64,000 nt of DNA, taken from contig NZ_JACJRV010000010.1 of assembly GCF_014697475.1 (NCBI RefSeq), positions 1-64,000 on the forward strand, read 5' to 3'. Below are positions 8,725-57,781 of the stretch, piece after piece. The notes beneath the pieces are model-generated. The model worked only from the letters and a program-made list of their open reading frames with translations, searched no databases and was not told where the DNA came from. How positions within the stretch are numbered: position 1 is the first letter of the stretch; each line of letters opens with the position of its first letter. The translations under genes were made by a program, and so were the position numbers. Source of the DNA: Nostoc sp. FACHB-152 (GTDB lineage Bacteria > Cyanobacteriota > Cyanobacteriia > Cyanobacteriales > Nostocaceae).

Positions 8725-8846
8725 TCTCACGCAAAGGCGCAGAGGCAAGGCAGTGCGTTGGGCGGCTCTGCTGACTTGTTCGCCTTGGTCTCCGATTAGG
8801 AGAAGCAACTGCCGCGCGGAGAGTGCCTTTGAGCCTTTGCGTGAGA
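8725..8846. repeat. 122-bp element with 23-bp terminal inverted repeats
   Basis: The ends 8725-8747 and 8824-8846 are inverted repeats matching at 21 of 23 positions (each begins TCTCACGCAAAGG). The interior is GC-rich with short palindromic modules (GCGTTGGGCGGCTCTG, CTGCCGCGCGGAG). No coding frame. It looks like a small non-autonomous palindromic element or dispersed repeat of Nostocales type. Part of its interior (8755-8785, complement) is the intact version of the target into which the 124-bp element at 9605 inserted. Confidence 0.65.
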
Positions 8847-8854
8847 CTTTAAAT

Positions 8855-9412
8855 TTAAGATAGTGTCAAGGCTGTATTAATAGTCCAAGCATCGACTAAC
8901 AGCAGCAGTAATGTAAATCCAAATAAAATCGCATACATCCAAGGCTGTGCTAAGGGGCGGACATCTGTGGTGTCTATGCCTGTTTTTGCTTGGACGATGT
9001 TAACTAAACGGGCAAAACCAGCTACTCGCATCGGTAATAAATAAGCTTTACCATCTTTGCTGAGGAAATAATAAACCAGTCCCCCTTGACCAGTCGAGCG
9101 GGGCTTTAATTCTTTGACTTCTGACCAAGGTAAAGTCCAGCCTTTACGAAAGAAACGTGGAACCCACATAGGGTAAGTTACCTGAATTTCTTGGTCGTTG
9201 ACAATTACTCTTTCAGTCAACACAGCATATAGCCCGACAAAGCCGATACAAATTCCTACCCACAGTAATGAGGGTGGTGTTGGTGCTGCTGTTGCTTGGG
9301 CTAAAAATGGCAATGGCACTGTAAGTGCTACATATAAACTCAACAGCGTAATCCGAATCAACGGCGATAGGCGAAAAATAGTAATAGAGGTATTAGCTGA
9401 GTTTGCTGTCAC
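8855..9412 (-). CDS. Cyanobacterial membrane protein of unknown function
   Basis: 185 aa with three likely membrane segments: about 18-37 (LIRITLLSLYVALTVPLPFL), 48-65 (LLWVGICIGFVGLYAVL) and 158-178 (MYAILFGFTLLLLLVD). Between the second and third lies a soluble region (TERVIVNDQEIQVTYP onward, with WTLPWSEVKELKPRS) with the strand-rich pattern of a bacterial PH-like domain. No catalytic motif. Its start at 9412 lies just downstream of the repeat-rich 9413-9846 region. Confidence 0.65.
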   Translation of the reverse strand: MTANSANTSITIFRLSPLIRITLLSLYVALTVPLPFLAQATAAPTPPSLLWVGICIGFVGLYAVLTERVIVNDQEIQVTYPMWVPRFFRKGWTLPWSEVKELKPRSTGQGGLVYYFLSKDGKAYLLPMRVAGFARLVNIVQAKTGIDTTDVRPLAQPWMYAILFGFTLLLLLVDAWTINTALTLS

Positions 9413-9846
9413 GGTTCCATTAAGATTGTTGCTTTCAGTTTTATCCTAACTGGAAGCAGAGTAGAGAAGCGAAAGTTGAGGCAGCGTGTTGCTGTGAGTC
9501 CAGCACTGCGGGAGGGTTGTCCTCCGCAGGCGACTGGCGTTAGCGACGCAGGAGCGTCACCCGAAGGGGGTTCCCATGCCACATACTTCAAGTCGGCAGA
9601 GCTGCAATACGGTTCGGATAAGCATTTTGAACTAAGAATTGGTTTGGGGAAAAGGTTAAAGGGTAAGGGTTAAAGGTTTTTTCTTCCCCTTTCCCCCTTC
9701 GCCTTTCCCCTTTAACCGAACCGTATTGGACAGAGCCGCCCAACGCAGTGGCTCCCCGTTGTAGCGACTGCCGTCGCGTTTCTACATCTGGTGGAATGAC
9801 GAAAAATCAAGATTAATAGGACACGCCCTAGCCTCTGTTTCCTTTA
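9413..9846. other. Repeat-rich intergenic region
   Basis: 434 bp with no gene. It holds GC-rich hairpins (CTGCGGGAGG-GTTGT-CCTCCGCAG near 9507-9531; GACGC/GCGTC near 9543-9558) and the 124-bp MITE-like element, all sitting upstream of the membrane protein and downstream of the M16 gene. The open frame across it is a translation of repeats and is not considered a gene. Confidence 0.7.
9605..9728 (+). mobile_element. 124-bp MITE-like element, copy 1
   Basis: Terminal inverted repeats of 13 bp (CAATACGGTTCGG ... CCGAACCGTATTG). The interior is a purine/pyrimidine-skewed imperfect palindrome (GGTTAAAGGGTAAGGG ... CCCTTTAACC) and has no coding capacity. A second copy of identical length lies in the opposite orientation at 30043-30166. 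The flanks carry a 10-bp direct repeat with 8 of 10 matches (GGCAGAGCTG left, GACAGAGCCG right). A TSD of this size would fit mobilisation by an IS4-group-like transposase (inference). Confidence 0.8.
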
Positions 9847-11130
9847 CTACCCTAATGCACTATTAATTGCATCTTCTTGCCCAACTAAAGATAAGTAAGG
9901 TTCCTTTAAATAGCGGGTAGCAGTTGCTTTTGCATCATCAACATTGACTGCGGCAATTATCTCTTGAAATTTACTGTCAAAATTAATGCCCAAGCCTAAA
10001 ATTTCATACCAACCGTAAATTTGAGCAATTTGCCCATTAGTTTGTTTACCAAGGGCATACTGTCCCAAGATTTTATTTTTAGCAGCTTGAAATGCGCTTT
10101 CTGATACTTCTGTAGAACAAAGTAAGTCTACCTCTTTCCACAGTCCTTCTAAGGCAATACTGGTATTTTCTGGGGCTGTACCCATGTAGACGACAAATGA
10201 GCCTGGATATAACTTAGTGGGATAAAAAGCCGAGACTTCGTAAGCTAAACCCCGCTTTTCTCGCAATTCCACAAATAAACGACTTGATAACCCATTGCCT
10301 AAGTAAGTAGACAGCAGTTTGAGTGAGGCGTAGTCTGGAGAACTGACTGCGGCTCCTAAATAACCCAACATCACAATTGATTGCTGTGTCTGTAGCGGCT
10401 TCAGCCGATGTTGTGGGTTGACTGGAATTTCTGGCAAATTCAGGATGGGTAGTGGTTGTGTTGGTACTTGCCAGTCACCAAACACTTGCTCTACCAATGC
10501 TACTGCCTCTGTTAAGGTAATTCTTCCGGCAATACTAATTACTAAATTATCTGGACGAAAGTGAGTTTGATGATACTGCACCAAGTCAGAACGAGTAATG
10601 CTGCTCATGGTGGTTTCATCCCCTAGTAAAGACATAGCATAGGGATGATTTTGGTACATCGCTTGGCGCATTTGCTCGAAGGCGAGGGTAAAAGGCTGCT
10701 CTTTTTGCGAGCGAATATCTTGGAGTGCCAAACGTCGTTCTAGTTCTACTTGTTCTTCGGGGAAGGTTGGCGATCGCAAAATTCGCCCTGTCAGTGCTAA
10801 TATCTCTGGAAAGTCTGATGTAACTGTTTTCAACGACAGCAAAAAATAATCTGTAGAGGTATCCGCGCTCAAACTAGCCCCTACAGACTCTACTTGTTCG
10901 GCAATTTCTAAGCTGGAAAGCCCATCACATCCCTTTGTCATCACAGCAGAGAGTAAATGTGCTAACCCCGCTTGCTCTGGTTTTTCGTAACAACTACCAG
11001 CACGAATAAAAATTCGCGCCGCAATAATATCCGCCGCCGGATTTTCTGCTGTCAAAACTACAATACCGTTGTTGAGTACAGTGCGATGGATGGGGGAGTG
11101 AGAAAGGGCAGTTTTCACAGTTTGAGTCAT
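9847..11130 (-). CDS. M16 family peptidase-like protein, zinc motif degenerate
   Basis: 427 aa with the pitrilysin/insulinase fold (two M16 halves; LRxGSCYE-type start, AHLLSAV helix, HFRPDNLVISIAG linking strand, LREKRGLAYEVSA in the second half). The zinc site HXXEH is changed to H58-L-L-S61-A62, so the catalytic Glu and second His are missing. It should be a non-catalytic partner. The next gene upstream on the same strand (11213) encodes an M16 protein with an intact site, 82 bp away; an active/inactive heterodimer is the usual arrangement in this family. Probably binds and holds peptides. Confidence 0.88.
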   Translation of the reverse strand: MTQTVKTALSHSPIHRTVLNNGIVVLTAENPAADIIAARIFIRAGSCYEKPEQAGLAHLLSAVMTKGCDGLSSLEIAEQVESVGASLSADTSTDYFLLSLKTVTSDFPEILALTGRILRSPTFPEEQVELERRLALQDIRSQKEQPFTLAFEQMRQAMYQNHPYAMSLLGDETTMSSITRSDLVQYHQTHFRPDNLVISIAGRITLTEAVALVEQVFGDWQVPTQPLPILNLPEIPVNPQHRLKPLQTQQSIVMLGYLGAAVSSPDYASLKLLSTYLGNGLSSRLFVELREKRGLAYEVSAFYPTKLYPGSFVVYMGTAPENTSIALEGLWKEVDLLCSTEVSESAFQAAKNKILGQYALGKQTNGQIAQIYGWYEILGLGINFDSKFQEIIAAVNVDDAKATATRYLKEPYLSLVGQEDAINSALG

Positions 11131-12865: not shown

Positions 12866-12876
12866 AAAAATTTTAA

Positions 12877-13058
12877 GTTCACCGCAACGCCGTTTTACCT
12901 AAGTTTATGACCTGGTTAAACCAGGTGGGAATTGATGTTGCTCGTTTAAAGTTTCCGGGTACCAGCCCGGTCTACTGCCACGAGAACGATTTAGTTCCCT
13001 TTTCTTTAAAGACATAGATCAAAAAACTTGATGGCAGTCACCAACGTCGCAGTGCAAC
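12877..13058 (-). ncRNA. ssrS: 6S RNA (ssrS/ssaA)
   Basis: About 182 nt on the minus strand, the usual cyanobacterial length. The 5' end (GTTGCACTGCGACG) and 3' end (GGCGTTGCGGTGAAC) pair into the closing stem with a few G-U pairs. The middle forms a long irregular hairpin with a large bubble. An internal arm runs from GACCGGGCTGG to CCGG, and GACTGCC pairs with GGCAGT. An exact TATAAT lies 7 nt upstream of the predicted start, and a hairpin terminator follows. 6S RNA binds sigma-70-type RNA polymerase holoenzyme by mimicking an open promoter. Cyanobacterial 6S is often found next to purK, which lies directly upstream on the same strand. The call is by structure, promoter and synteny; exact ends are approximate. 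The rest of 12482-13118 is AT-rich and shows nothing else. Confidence 0.75.
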
Positions 13059-27278: not shown

Positions 27279-29924
27279 ATGCAGCCTACAGATCCTAATA
27301 AATTTACTGATAAAGCCTGGGAAGCAATTGTAAAATCTCAGGATATAGTGCGTGCGTATAAACAACAACAATTAGACGTTGAACATTTAATTATTGCCCT
27401 GTTAGAAGAACCCACAAGTTTAGCTATTCGCATCTTAGCGCGGGCGGAAATCGACCCCATCCGCTTACAACAGCAATTAGAAGCCTATACCCAACGTCAA
27501 CCTAAAGTTGCCAATAATGACCAGCTTTACCTCGGTCGCAGTTTAGATGCGCTACTCGATCGCGCCGAGGAAGCTAGAGTCAAAATGAAAGATACTTACA
27601 TCTCAGTAGAACATATTCTCTTGGGTTTTACTGAAGATGAACGCATCGGTCGGCGGATACTGAAAGGTTTTAATGTTGACAGTACTACATTAGAAGCAGC
27701 GATTAAATCTGTACGGGGTAGTCAAAAGGTGACCGATCAAAATCCAGAGTCTCGCTATGAAGCCCTACAAAAATTTGGTAGAGATTTGACAGAACAAGCC
27801 AAAGCCGGAAAACTCGACCCAGTTATCGGCCGGGATGATGAAATTCGGCGCGTAATTCAGGTGTTATCTCGCCGGAGTAAAAATAATCCAGTATTAATTG
27901 GCGAACCGGGTGTAGGTAAGACTGCGATCGCGGAAGCTCTAGCACAGCGTATAATTAACGGCGATGTCCCGGAATCTCTCAAAAATCGTCAGTTAATCTC
28001 TTTAGATATCGGCAGTTTAATTGCTGGGGCAAAATACCGGGGTGAATTTGAAGACCGCCTGAAAGCTGTACTCAAGGAAGTTATTGAGTCCAACGGGCAA
28101 ATCGTCCTGTTTATTGATGAACTGCACACCGTGGTTGGTACTGGTTCCAATCAACAAGGGGCGATGGATGCTGGAAATTTACTCAAACCCATGTTAGCTA
28201 GGGGTGAACTGCGGTGTATTGGTGCAACTACCTTAGATGAATACCGCAAATACATTGAGAAAGACGCAGCCCTAGAACGGCGTTTCCAGCAAGTATTTGT
28301 TGATCAGCCTAGCGTAGAAAACACCATCTCTATTCTCCGTGGTTTAAAAGAACGCTACGAAGTGCATCACAACGTTAAAATTTCTGACTCCGCACTAGTA
28401 GCTGCTGCTACCTTGTCAGCGCGATACATTGCTGACCGCTTCCTACCTGACAAAGCCATTGATTTGGTAGATGAAGCCGCCGCCCAGTTGAAAATGGAGA
28501 TTACTTCCAAACCTTCAGAATTGGAAGCCATTGACCGTCGCTTAATGCAGCTAGAAATGGAAAAGCTGTCATTAGCCGGAGAAGAGAAAGTACCCGCCCA
28601 AACGCGAGAACGTTTGCAGCGAATTGAACAAGAAATTGACACTTTAAAGCTAAAACAGCAAGAATTTAACGATCAATGGCAAGGTGAAAAGCAGTTATTA
28701 GAAGCTATCAGCGTCTTAAAGAAAGAAGAAGAAGCCTTGCGTGTGCAAATTGATCAGGCAGAACGGGCGTATGATTTGAATAAAGCTGCCCAATTGAAGT
28801 ATGGCAAACTGGAAGGCGTGCAGCGCGATCGCGAAGCCAAAGAAGCAAAACTTTTAGAATTGCAAAGTCAAGGTTCTACCCTACTACGTGAACAAGTCAC
28901 GGAAGCCGACATCGCGGAAATCGTCGCCAAGTGGACAGGAATCCCCGTCAACCGTCTACTAGAATCAGAACGGCAAAAATTACTGCAACTCGAAAGCCAT
29001 TTACATAAACGCGTCATTGGGCAACACGAAGCGGTAGAAGCCGTAGCTGCCGCTATTCGTCGCGCCCGTGCAGGGATGAAAGATCCCAGCCGCCCCATTG
29101 GTTCATTTTTGTTTATGGGGCCGACTGGAGTAGGTAAAACTGAACTAGCCCGTGCCTTAGCGCAGTTTCTCTTTGATTCTGATGATGCTTTGGTACGCTT
29201 AGATATGTCCGAGTATATGGAGAAACATTCTGTTTCCCGGTTGGTAGGTGCGCCTCCAGGTTATGTAGGTTACGAAGAAGGCGGTCAACTTTCCGAAGCG
29301 GTTCGCCGCCATCCTTACTCTGTAGTGCTGTTGGATGAGGTAGAAAAAGCTCACCCCGATGTGTTCAATATTTTATTGCAAGTACTTGATGATGGTAGAA
29401 TTACTGACTCTCAAGGCAGAACAGTAGATTTTCGCAACACCGTCATTGTGATGACCAGCAATATTGGTAGCGAACACATTCTTGATGTTTCCGGTGATGA
29501 TTCTAAATATGACATGATGCAGAACCGCGTGACAGATGCGTTGCGATCGCACTTCCGCCCGGAATTTCTCAACCGTGTAGATGATACCATCTTATTCCAC
29601 ACCCTCAGCCGTTCAGAAATGCGGCATATCATCCGCATTCAACTCAAGCGCGTCGAATTCCTCCTCCAAGAACAAAAAATCTCCTTTGAAATCACCCAAG
29701 AAGCTTGTGATTACCTAGTAGAAATGGGTTACGATCCAGTTTATGGCGCACGTCCTCTCAAACGCGCAATTCAGCGAGAAGTAGAAAACCCCATTGCCAC
29801 TAAATTATTAGAAAATACCTTCATTGCTGGCGATACTATTCTTATTGATAAGAATGAGGCTGGTCTAACTTTTAGCAAAAAACAACCAGCGAAAGTAGTA
29901 GTCACTCAAGTCACAACATCGTGA
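27279..29924 (+). CDS. clpB: Chaperone ClpB (Hsp100 disaggregase)
   Basis: 881 aa hexameric AAA+ ATPase that rescues aggregated proteins with DnaK. N-terminal double Clp-N repeat (1-150), NBD1 with Walker [10 protein letters not shown] and Walker B LFIDELH, a coiled-coil middle domain (about 410-530), NBD2 with Walker [10 protein letters not shown] and Walker [13 protein letters not shown], and a C-terminal domain. The middle domain separates it from ClpC. Full length. Cyanobacteria have two ClpB paralogs; I cannot tell which this is. No CIRCE element was seen upstream. Confidence 0.97.
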
Positions 29925-29977: not shown

Positions 29978-30042
29978 ATTTTGTTATAGTTATCATCTTA
30001 CAAGACTTTTAACCTGTTCCCTGTCACCTGTAACCTATCACC

Positions 30043-30166
30043 CAATACGGTTCGGTTAAAGGGGAAAGGCAAAGGGCAAAAGGGGAAGAAAAAACCTTTA
30101 ACCCTTACCCTTTAACCTTTTCCCCAAACCAATTCTGAGTTCAAAATGCTTATCCGAACCGTATTG
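30043..30166 (-). mobile_element. 124-bp MITE-like element, copy 2
   Basis: Reverse-orientation copy of the element at 9605-9728: identical length, same 13-bp CAATACGGTTCGG termini, and nearly identical interior. It is flanked by a perfect 10-bp direct repeat ACCTATCACC (30033-30042 and 30167-30176) which abuts both ends. The flanking sequence is itself heptamer-repeat DNA, so the repeat could in part be background, but copy 1 has the same flank size. The rest of the 29925-30306 gap is AT-rich and has no gene. Confidence 0.8.
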
Positions 30167-30306
30167 ACCTATCACCTACTATAAAAAATTTATTAACTCA
30201 GTTTAAAGATAAAAGTTATTTCAGATGTAGACTATCAATTTAAGTGATTATACGGTAAAACTTAAATAGCATACTCTCCAAAAGTAGGTTAGACAAGCAA
30301 ATTTTT

Positions 30307-30948
30307 ATGCAGCTAATCACATCATTCGACCTGAAAAAGTCTGAGTATTTATCCAAAGACAGATTCATCAGTTATCATCATCAATTACGTTTAATATTTT
30401 CCCTTGGCAATCAAGTCAAAAACGTTTTAGAAATTGGAATTTACAATTCATTATTAACAGATATTCTTAAGTCTTATGGTTACGAAGTCAATACAGCAGA
30501 TATTGACCATAATCTTAACCCAGATATAATTTTAGATTTAGCAACAGATTTTTCATTACCTAAAGATAAATTTGATGCGATCGTTCTATTTCAGGTTTTA
30601 GAACATCTCCCTTACGAACAGTCAGAACTAGCTTTAAAAAAGCTAGCAGCAGCAACCAAGAAATATTTAGTCATCTCGCTTCCTTATAACACGTTATATT
30701 CAGCTTTCCAAATTAGGTTTTCTGGGATACCAAGGTCAAGATATTTATTACTAGAAATACCTAAATTTTGGACTAACAAACCTTTATCAAAGCATCATTA
30801 TTGGGAAGTTGGATTAAAAGACTATCCCAAAAAGCGGATTTTATCTTCAATTAAAAATGCTGGATTGAGTGTAAAAAAAGAATTTATTGATCCGATCAAT
30901 CCCTACCACTACTTTTTAGTGTTGGAAAAAAATATTAATAACTATTAA
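30307..30948 (+). CDS. SAM-dependent methyltransferase, class I
   Basis: 213 aa. SAM-binding motif I is VLEIGIYNS (about 38-46), the acidic residue ending strand 2 is in NTADIDHN, and the motif around FDAIVLFQVLEHLP is the strand-4/post-motif region. Substrate unknown. The gene is AT-rich compared with clpB and htpG. Convergent with another methyltransferase gene 25 bp away. Confidence 0.8.
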   Translation: MQLITSFDLKKSEYLSKDRFISYHHQLRLIFSLGNQVKNVLEIGIYNSLLTDILKSYGYEVNTADIDHNLNPDIILDLATDFSLPKDKFDAIVLFQVLEHLPYEQSELALKKLAAATKKYLVISLPYNTLYSAFQIRFSGIPRSRYLLLEIPKFWTNKPLSKHHYWEVGLKDYPKKRILSSIKNAGLSVKKEFIDPINPYHYFLVLEKNINNY

Positions 30949-34640: not shown

Positions 34641-34722
34641 TGCGGATGAAAGGACTTGAACCTTCACTCCTCTCGGAACTAGAACCTAAATCTAGCGCGT
34701 CTGCCAATTCCGCCACATCCGC
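34641..34722 (-). tRNA. tRNA-Leu (UAG)
   Basis: 82 nt on the minus strand. Acceptor stem GCGGATG/CATCCGC with A73; D-arm starts TGGCGGAATTGGCAGACGC; anticodon stem CTAGA/TCTAG with loop TTTAGGT gives anticodon UAG (reads CUN codons). The variable arm is long (class II) and the T-arm has GGTTCAAGTCC. The 3' CCA is not encoded. All features fit a leucine tRNA. Confidence 0.95.
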
Positions 34723-57418: not shown

Positions 57419-57781
57419 ATGAAGTTCTTGGCAGATATGGGAATTTCGCTACGAACTGTATTGTGGTTGCGTAGTAGTGGTTATGATGTAGTGCATTTGC
57501 GCGATGAAGATTTGCAAAGGCTACCAGATAACGAGATTTTAATCAAAGCTCGTACAGAAGAGAGAATTTTATTAACTGTAGATTTAGATTTTGCCCAACT
57601 GTTAGCCATCAGTGGAGATAATTTACCCAGTGTCATCTTGTTTAGATTGGGAAATGAAAATTACGATGTAATTAACGAACGGTTGACGCAAGTTTTGAAT
57701 GAATGTCAGGAAGATTTAGAAGTAGGTTCAATGATTTCTGTGAATAATGAAAGTTTCCGGGTTAGGCGATTGCCGATATGA
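57419..57781 (+). CDS. DUF5615 PIN-like protein (toxin-like)
   Basis: 120 aa. FLADMGISLRTVLWLRSSGYDVVHLRD start and the LLTVDLDFAQLL segment carry the acidic residues of the PIN-like (Mut7-C-related) RNase fold: D6, the Asp/Glu of RDEDL, and D of VDLDF. Paired with DUF433 in a tight two-gene unit. Predicted RNase toxin. A 13-unit 21-bp tandem repeat begins 80 bp downstream. Confidence 0.87.
   Translation: MKFLADMGISLRTVLWLRSSGYDVVHLRDEDLQRLPDNEILIKARTEERILLTVDLDFAQLLAISGDNLPSVILFRLGNENYDVINERLTQVLNECQEDLEVGSMISVNNESFRVRRLPI

Follow-up and report, generated by a model that had tools for sequence, protein, structure and literature searches.

The window, by which we mean the whole analysed stretch of 64,000 nucleotides, carries the same short non-coding sequence at two distant places, and the question that it raises is whether this sequence is a mobile element and, if so, which transposase moves it. 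An earlier note on this DNA had described two MITE-like copies of exactly 124 bp in opposite orientation, ended by a shared 13-bp inverted repeat and flanked by 10-bp repeats (perfect for copy 2, with two mismatches for copy 1), as well as an uninterrupted relative of the target of copy 1. The present analysis recovered all these features, which are placed as follows:

9605 to 9728, plus strand: MITE copy 1 (124 bp; terminal repeats at 9605-9617 and 9716-9728)
30043 to 30166, minus strand: MITE copy 2 (124 bp; inverted relative to copy 1 and 97% identical to it)
9595 to 9604, no strand: left 10-bp target duplication of copy 1, GGCAGAGCTG (8/10 with the right one)
9729 to 9738, no strand: right 10-bp target duplication of copy 1, GACAGAGCCG (8/10 with the left one)
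30033 to 30042, no strand: left 10-bp target duplication of copy 2, ACCTATCACC (10/10)
30167 to 30176, no strand: right 10-bp target duplication of copy 2, ACCTATCACC (10/10)
8754 to 8778, minus strand: uninterrupted relative of the copy 1 target (1 mismatch in the 25-bp joined target)

The exact 13-mer CAATACGGTTCGG is perfect at all four MITE ends and found nowhere else in the window. When two mismatches are allowed, the window contains five matches (the fifth at 57451-57463, with two mismatches), while 100 shuffles gave 0.75 matches on average and never more than 3. The ends are actually alike over about 17-18 bp, CAATACGGTTCGG(A/T)TAA, that is, beyond the perfect 13-bp repeats. Copy 1 is located between an M16 peptidase gene (9847-11130, minus strand) and a 185-aa ORF devoid of Pfam match (8855-9412, minus strand), and copy 2 between clpB (27279-29924, plus strand) and a methyltransferase gene (30307-30948, plus strand). 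No match to the 25-bp joined target of copy 1 was expected from shuffled sequences, compared to the one observed at 8754-8778; this is a paralogous site that shows the form of the target before insertion and not the ancestral locus.

The earlier claim that the interior lacks coding capacity also holds, as every ORF of 20 aa or more overlapping a copy (four for copy 1 and two for copy 2) extends beyond an end of the element. The purine/pyrimidine-rich interior folds into a strong hairpin (z scores of -5.0 to -6.2 as RNA and of -3.7 to -3.9 as DNA). No terminator-like site was found around copy 1 (9400-9900) and no Rfam family matched the element. Elsewhere in the window, Rfam matches correspond to a 6S RNA and a tRNA gene (12875-13058 and 34641-34722, both on the minus strand).

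The assembly that includes the window (8.6 Mb in 190 contigs) contains many more copies. The whole-genome search proposed earlier, for spaced pairs of 13-bp ends, revealed 13 places of 122-124 bp with exact ends separated by 85-115 bp, while the reversed pattern used as control gave none. Blastn with copy 1 returned 42 matches in this genome, some of them partial, and the 13-bp end with at most one mismatch has 109 matches compared to six for the reversed control; 100 of these 109 places were listed. A total of 58 loci was then processed by a script that merged repeated places and required both ends, each with at most three mismatches in 13 and with AATA kept; 47 distinct copies were retained and 11 loci were dropped (truncated, one-ended or duplicate places). 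The interior is related in 41 of the 47 copies and unrelated in the other six. The 31 copies of 120-130 bp fall into two subfamilies of 18 and 11 members (mean identity of 94% in each) and two singletons, and longer copies (172-261 bp) also exist, four of which harbor another repeat. Many copies are decayed at their ends or duplications.

Target duplications of at least 8/10 flank 38 of the 47 copies (at least 9/10 for 35 and 10/10 for 21), the other nine having none at this level; as a control, only 23 of 2162 left/right flank pairs taken across copies reach 8/10. Among flank lengths of 5 to 14 bp, solely 10 bp stands out: the mean identity between flanks is 0.84 at this length compared to 0.23-0.31 at lengths 5-9 and 11-14, and to 0.29 when flanks of different copies are paired. 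Perfect 10-bp duplications also flank plasmid copies from N. linckia NIES-25, Microchaete diplosiphon NIES-3275 and Nostoc sp. MS1 according to the script (the ends of the first two being diverged, with six and five mismatches, respectively, summed over both ends). The duplication is 9/10 for the plasmid copy of Nostoc sp. HK-01 (script) and, by eye, for that of Nostoc sp. ATCC 53789 (L397), whose left end was missed by the script. Two copies on one contig of the window's genome (L380 and L382, C103:322481-322604 and 322634-322757) are separated by 29 bp, and each of them is flanked by a separate 10-bp duplication that is perfect.

Other miniature sequences were encountered on the way. Four elements of the window's genome (L123, L390, L391 and L120, the last at C2:64223-64379) have CAATACGGTTC(A/G)G ends and unrelated interiors. 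A GC-rich repeat (GCGACTGGCGTTAGCG and its flanks) is nested in four MITEs of this genome (L023, L027, L118 and L121), three of which keep duplications matching at 8-10 of 10 positions; it is also present inside the IS1634-like transposase gene of a locus from a relative (L222), and a related sequence lies at 9529-9545 in the window. This repeat may be mobile itself and travel as a passenger of the MITE.

The neighborhoods of the two insertions were then compared with those of relatives. For copy 1, 60 genomes were searched for the M16 locus and 30 loci were fetched, including that of the window: in all the 29 other genomes, blastn found no element beside the M16 gene, ten of these loci showing a lone end-like 13-mer with two mismatches, and the 185-aa ORF was not found next to M16 in the fetched relative loci. 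For copy 2, 29 loci from named genomes were inspected upstream of the methyltransferase gene: none has a full copy, and one (L329) has two partial matches to the element interior only. All six loci with the same clpB-methyltransferase order as the window lack any match to the element, a lone 13-mer with one mismatch being located within clpB in one of them. The comparison of insertion and empty sites called for by the earlier note thus succeeded in one respect, since the element is absent from the neighborhoods of the examined relatives, but not in the other: the non-coding sequence around the insertion points lacks conservation, so that a base-by-base alignment of an empty site was not possible. 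When empty sites were modelled from 30 copies, including some truncated ones for which the model is crude, only two insertion points fall within an ORF of 150 aa or more, in both cases right at its border, compared to a fraction of 0.55 for the surroundings; the MITE insertions avoid genes.

In short, the element has no match in the corresponding neighborhoods of the examined relatives, and 38 of 47 copies are flanked by 10-bp duplications of at least 8/10. Both results support the claim of insertion and mobility, and this family is a mobile MITE family.

The search for the mobilizing transposase went through two misleading candidates. In the window's genome, 25 matches to DDE_Tnp_1 were found, and a single one of them (L074, contig C166) is next to a MITE end with at most two mismatches in 13. 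It is a truncated IS4-like gene adjoining a perfect MITE end, but the end is missing, at up to two mismatches, from all 29 related loci. Elements of this type in relatives have their own ends, CAATACC(T/G)T(A/T)GCC, and duplications judged by eye to be 5-7 bp long (in two of 30 loci, no frame was detected by the script), and the right end of L074 is followed by a MITE remnant. The second candidate, L222 from the relative G161, is an IS1634-like element located between MITE-like ends, but the other fetched loci of this type lack such a pair of ends, and L222 has its own inner ends, CCGCACTTCAAA (by eye, in L222 only). The two unrelated ISs (L074 at 1258-2097 and L222 at 768-2958) appear to have jumped into MITE copies; MITEs may thus be landing sites for other ISs. 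Elsewhere, the 40 examined regions flanking single ends (from G026, G136, G098, the draft genome G161 and one place of the window's genome) yielded more MITEs, Pfam detected no transposase among ten ORFs neighboring single ends, and a search of plasmids with a 271-bp MITE query from a relative gave no match.

The likely partner was revealed by a family-wide search of 192 genomes for the pattern CAATACGGTTC(A/G)GNTAAG and for ends paired 1.4-1.6 kb apart. This end is present in 146 of the 192 genomes (0 in the control columns), with at least three end pairs 1.49-1.52 kb apart among the matches listed. The three paired-end ISs (1487, 1486 and 1517 bp) have perfect ends of at least 18 bp, CAATACGGTTCAGTTAAG; two are flanked by perfect 10-bp duplications and the third by a 4/10 repeat. 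Three transposases of the partner ISs match the IS4 family model NF033592 (180-203 bits for a cut-off of 115) and contain Nterm_IS4 (PF13006) and DDE_Tnp_1 (PF01609) domains above the cut-offs; a sequence search at E <=1 gave no solved structure similar to the transposase. The transposases of L292 and L278 are 409 and 411 aa long, respectively. The IS4 family has been defined by a Y(2)R(3)E(6)K motif and by the spacing of the DDE residues, according to the consulted part of PMC2266710 (De Palmenaer et al. 2008). The L292 transposase conforms to D(60-110)D(100-150)E with D-76-D-103-E and shows an exact Y(2)R(3)E(6)K (YHQRWEVESTIDELK). The partner IS also has the duplications of about one helix turn and the CAAT ends of the IS4 and IS4Sa subgroups described there; CAATACGGT fits the first bases of both the IS4 (-AATR) and IS4Sa (CA------T) lines of the table, and either subgroup may be the right one.

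Among the 30 best-scoring transposase loci, both ends are present in 20 when one mismatch in 18 is tolerated and in 26 when three are, the six additional ISs carrying the variants CAATACTTTTCGG and CAATACTTCTCGG. Of the remaining loci, three (L291, L293 and L301) have one end only, and the ends of L302 (two mismatches each) are 2210 bp apart, just over the length limit used. Most of these ISs are 1.47-1.54 kb long with CAATACGGTTC(A/G)GTTAAG ends (L271, L278, L292, L294 and others). Duplications of at least 8/10, in line with the approximately 10 bp of IS4-family elements, flank 21 of the 26 two-ended loci (10/10 in 20 of them), the exceptions being L277, L279, L284, L298 and L300. One locus has a complex structure: in L294 (989-2790), a partial copy of a CGG-ended IS precedes a further copy of this IS, and a perfect 10-bp duplication encloses the two, which looks like an IS inserted into or beside its own kind.

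The resemblance between these ISs and the MITE concerns the termini only. CGG ends exactly like those of the MITE were found solely in L292 and L294 among the best 30 loci, with 17/17 identical bases on one side and 18/19 on the other. Past the terminal bases, the comparison with L292 gives 10-bp matches only (E 0.67), and the purine/pyrimidine-rich filler of the MITE is unrelated to the interior of the partner. The MITE is therefore an ends-only element rather than a derivative, by internal deletion, of any of the five ISs compared. As regards targets, the agreement is partial: a matrix built from 21 IS targets gives higher scores to 38 MITE targets than to 752 overlapping 10-mers from the flanks (p 1e-5), but the TATA core favored by CAG-ended ISs is far less marked among MITE targets. 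These preferences, read from the sequences, fit a CGG-ended IS as the mover, without proving it.

The partner transposase has matches in 113 of the 192 genomes (E <=0.001), and the end is commoner in these (101/113) than in those lacking it (45/79; Fisher p 3e-7, from a hand tally uncorrected for kinship). However, no match was obtained in the window's own assembly at the same threshold, and a query of the CGG-ended type gave matches, some of them weak, in seven of 11 genomes of the genus but none in this one. The MITE is thus an orphan in this assembly, or its partner IS is unassembled. The search for a full-length IS with the same ends was successful in relatives (IS4 family, about 1.5 kb, 10-bp duplications), and these ISs support the earlier inference that a transposase generating duplications of about 10 bp, as in IS4-group elements, moves the MITE in trans.

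Taken as a whole, the element is very probably a non-autonomous MITE made of IS4-family recognition ends around an unrelated hairpin-forming filler and moved in trans by an IS4-family transposase. It has the size (124 bp, for an expected 100-300 bp) and perfect 13-bp terminal inverted repeats of a MITE, encodes no transposase or other protein, is present in multiple copies at different sites with target duplications and, in relatives only, shares its ends with an autonomous element that generates the same duplication. The cut-and-paste chemistry of IS4-family elements is well known. Transposition of the MITE in trans would follow it: a transposase, probably from the CGG-ended lineage that L292 and L294 match best, would bind both CAATACGGTTCGG(A/T)TAA ends and cut the element out, the excised MITE would be joined to a target cut with a 10-bp stagger, and repair would produce the duplication.

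Several observations count against this reading: near-identical MITE copies occur in a genome where the transposase is undetected, 45 of the 79 genomes devoid of transposase match still have the end, the TATA core of the CAG-ended ISs is weak in MITE targets, CGG ends are found in two of the 30 transposase loci only, and duplications of 8/10 are lacking for nine of 47 MITE copies and five of 26 ISs. It could be proposed that the MITE is rather moved by the transposases found beside its ends, the 461-aa IS4-like element of the L074 type or the IS1634-like L222. The former adjoins one MITE end and the latter lies between two, each in one genome, and the outer ends of L222 are flanked by a 9/10 duplication by eye. 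Among the fetched loci, however, those of the L074 type in relatives lack the MITE end and the others of the L222 type lack a pair of such ends; L074-type elements and L222 also have different ends of their own, and this proposal is highly improbable. We give equally little credit to a fixed palindromic repeat, for example a terminator or an RNA element, spread by recombination or descent without transposition: the strong hairpin and the mostly intergenic location would suit it, but the exact 10-bp duplications are particular to each copy, the element is absent from the 29 M16 neighborhoods and the six clpB-methyltransferase loci, and neither a terminator-like site nor an Rfam match was found at the element.

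A further possibility lies within the preferred reading of a MITE moved in trans: its IS may since have been lost from the lineage, leaving the MITE immobile here. This has somewhat less than an even chance in our opinion. The lack of the transposase in the assembly and the decay of many copies speak for it, but perfect ends are found on 13 copies, several of which are 97-98% identical to copy 1 and have 10/10 duplications, and this points to recent movement, and the IS could simply be missing from an assembly of 190 contigs.

The element is a well-documented but ordinary miniature transposable element, of a kind that is already known. Nezha, reportedly published by Zhou and colleagues in 2008, is said to be a cyanobacterial MITE, as is the element reported here, and the two may be members of one superfamily. 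Judging by its title, a 2008 work by Elhai and colleagues deals with very small mobile repeated sequences of cyanobacteria, and the repeat nested in some larger MITE copies may be of that kind. With regard to movers, the autonomous IS4-family elements of Nostocales (L271, L278, L292, L294 and others) have the same 17-19 terminal bases and 10-bp duplications as the MITE but carry a transposase gene and an unrelated interior, and more generally the IS4 family encodes transposases whereas the MITE does not. ISNpu3-like elements have been proposed as movers of Nezha in the portion of PMC3049150 consulted. Since the table seen in PMC3852290 places an archaeal MITE under an IS4-family IS, MITEs linked to this family were already known. 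The consulted text of PMC10969869 names MITEs of cyanobacteria, and excerpts of PMC3542288 report 147 MITEs in Anabaena sp. 90 with ends unlike any IS of that genome. Our literature search for a cyanobacterial IS4 MITE found none, and the one made with the first 11 bases of the MITE end gave matches that are unrelated by title.

What this work adds is the identification of the partner lineage in relatives together with the lack of detection of its transposase in the MITE's own assembly. A cyanobacterial MITE is thereby cleanly paired with an IS lineage, the duplication being strictly of 10 bp, and the work also exposes a trap, as ISs inserted into MITEs mimic a partner. It is conceivable, although we consider it rather unlikely, that a single IS4-family end signature extends across Nostocales and serves many miniature elements with unrelated interiors, the transposase mobilizing anything that lies between such ends, so that these elements would spread, now or until recently, without a resident IS, perhaps thanks to plasmid-borne ISs, and with small repeats as passengers. 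The pairing itself gives a means of annotating many unexplained intergenic repeats in Nostocales.
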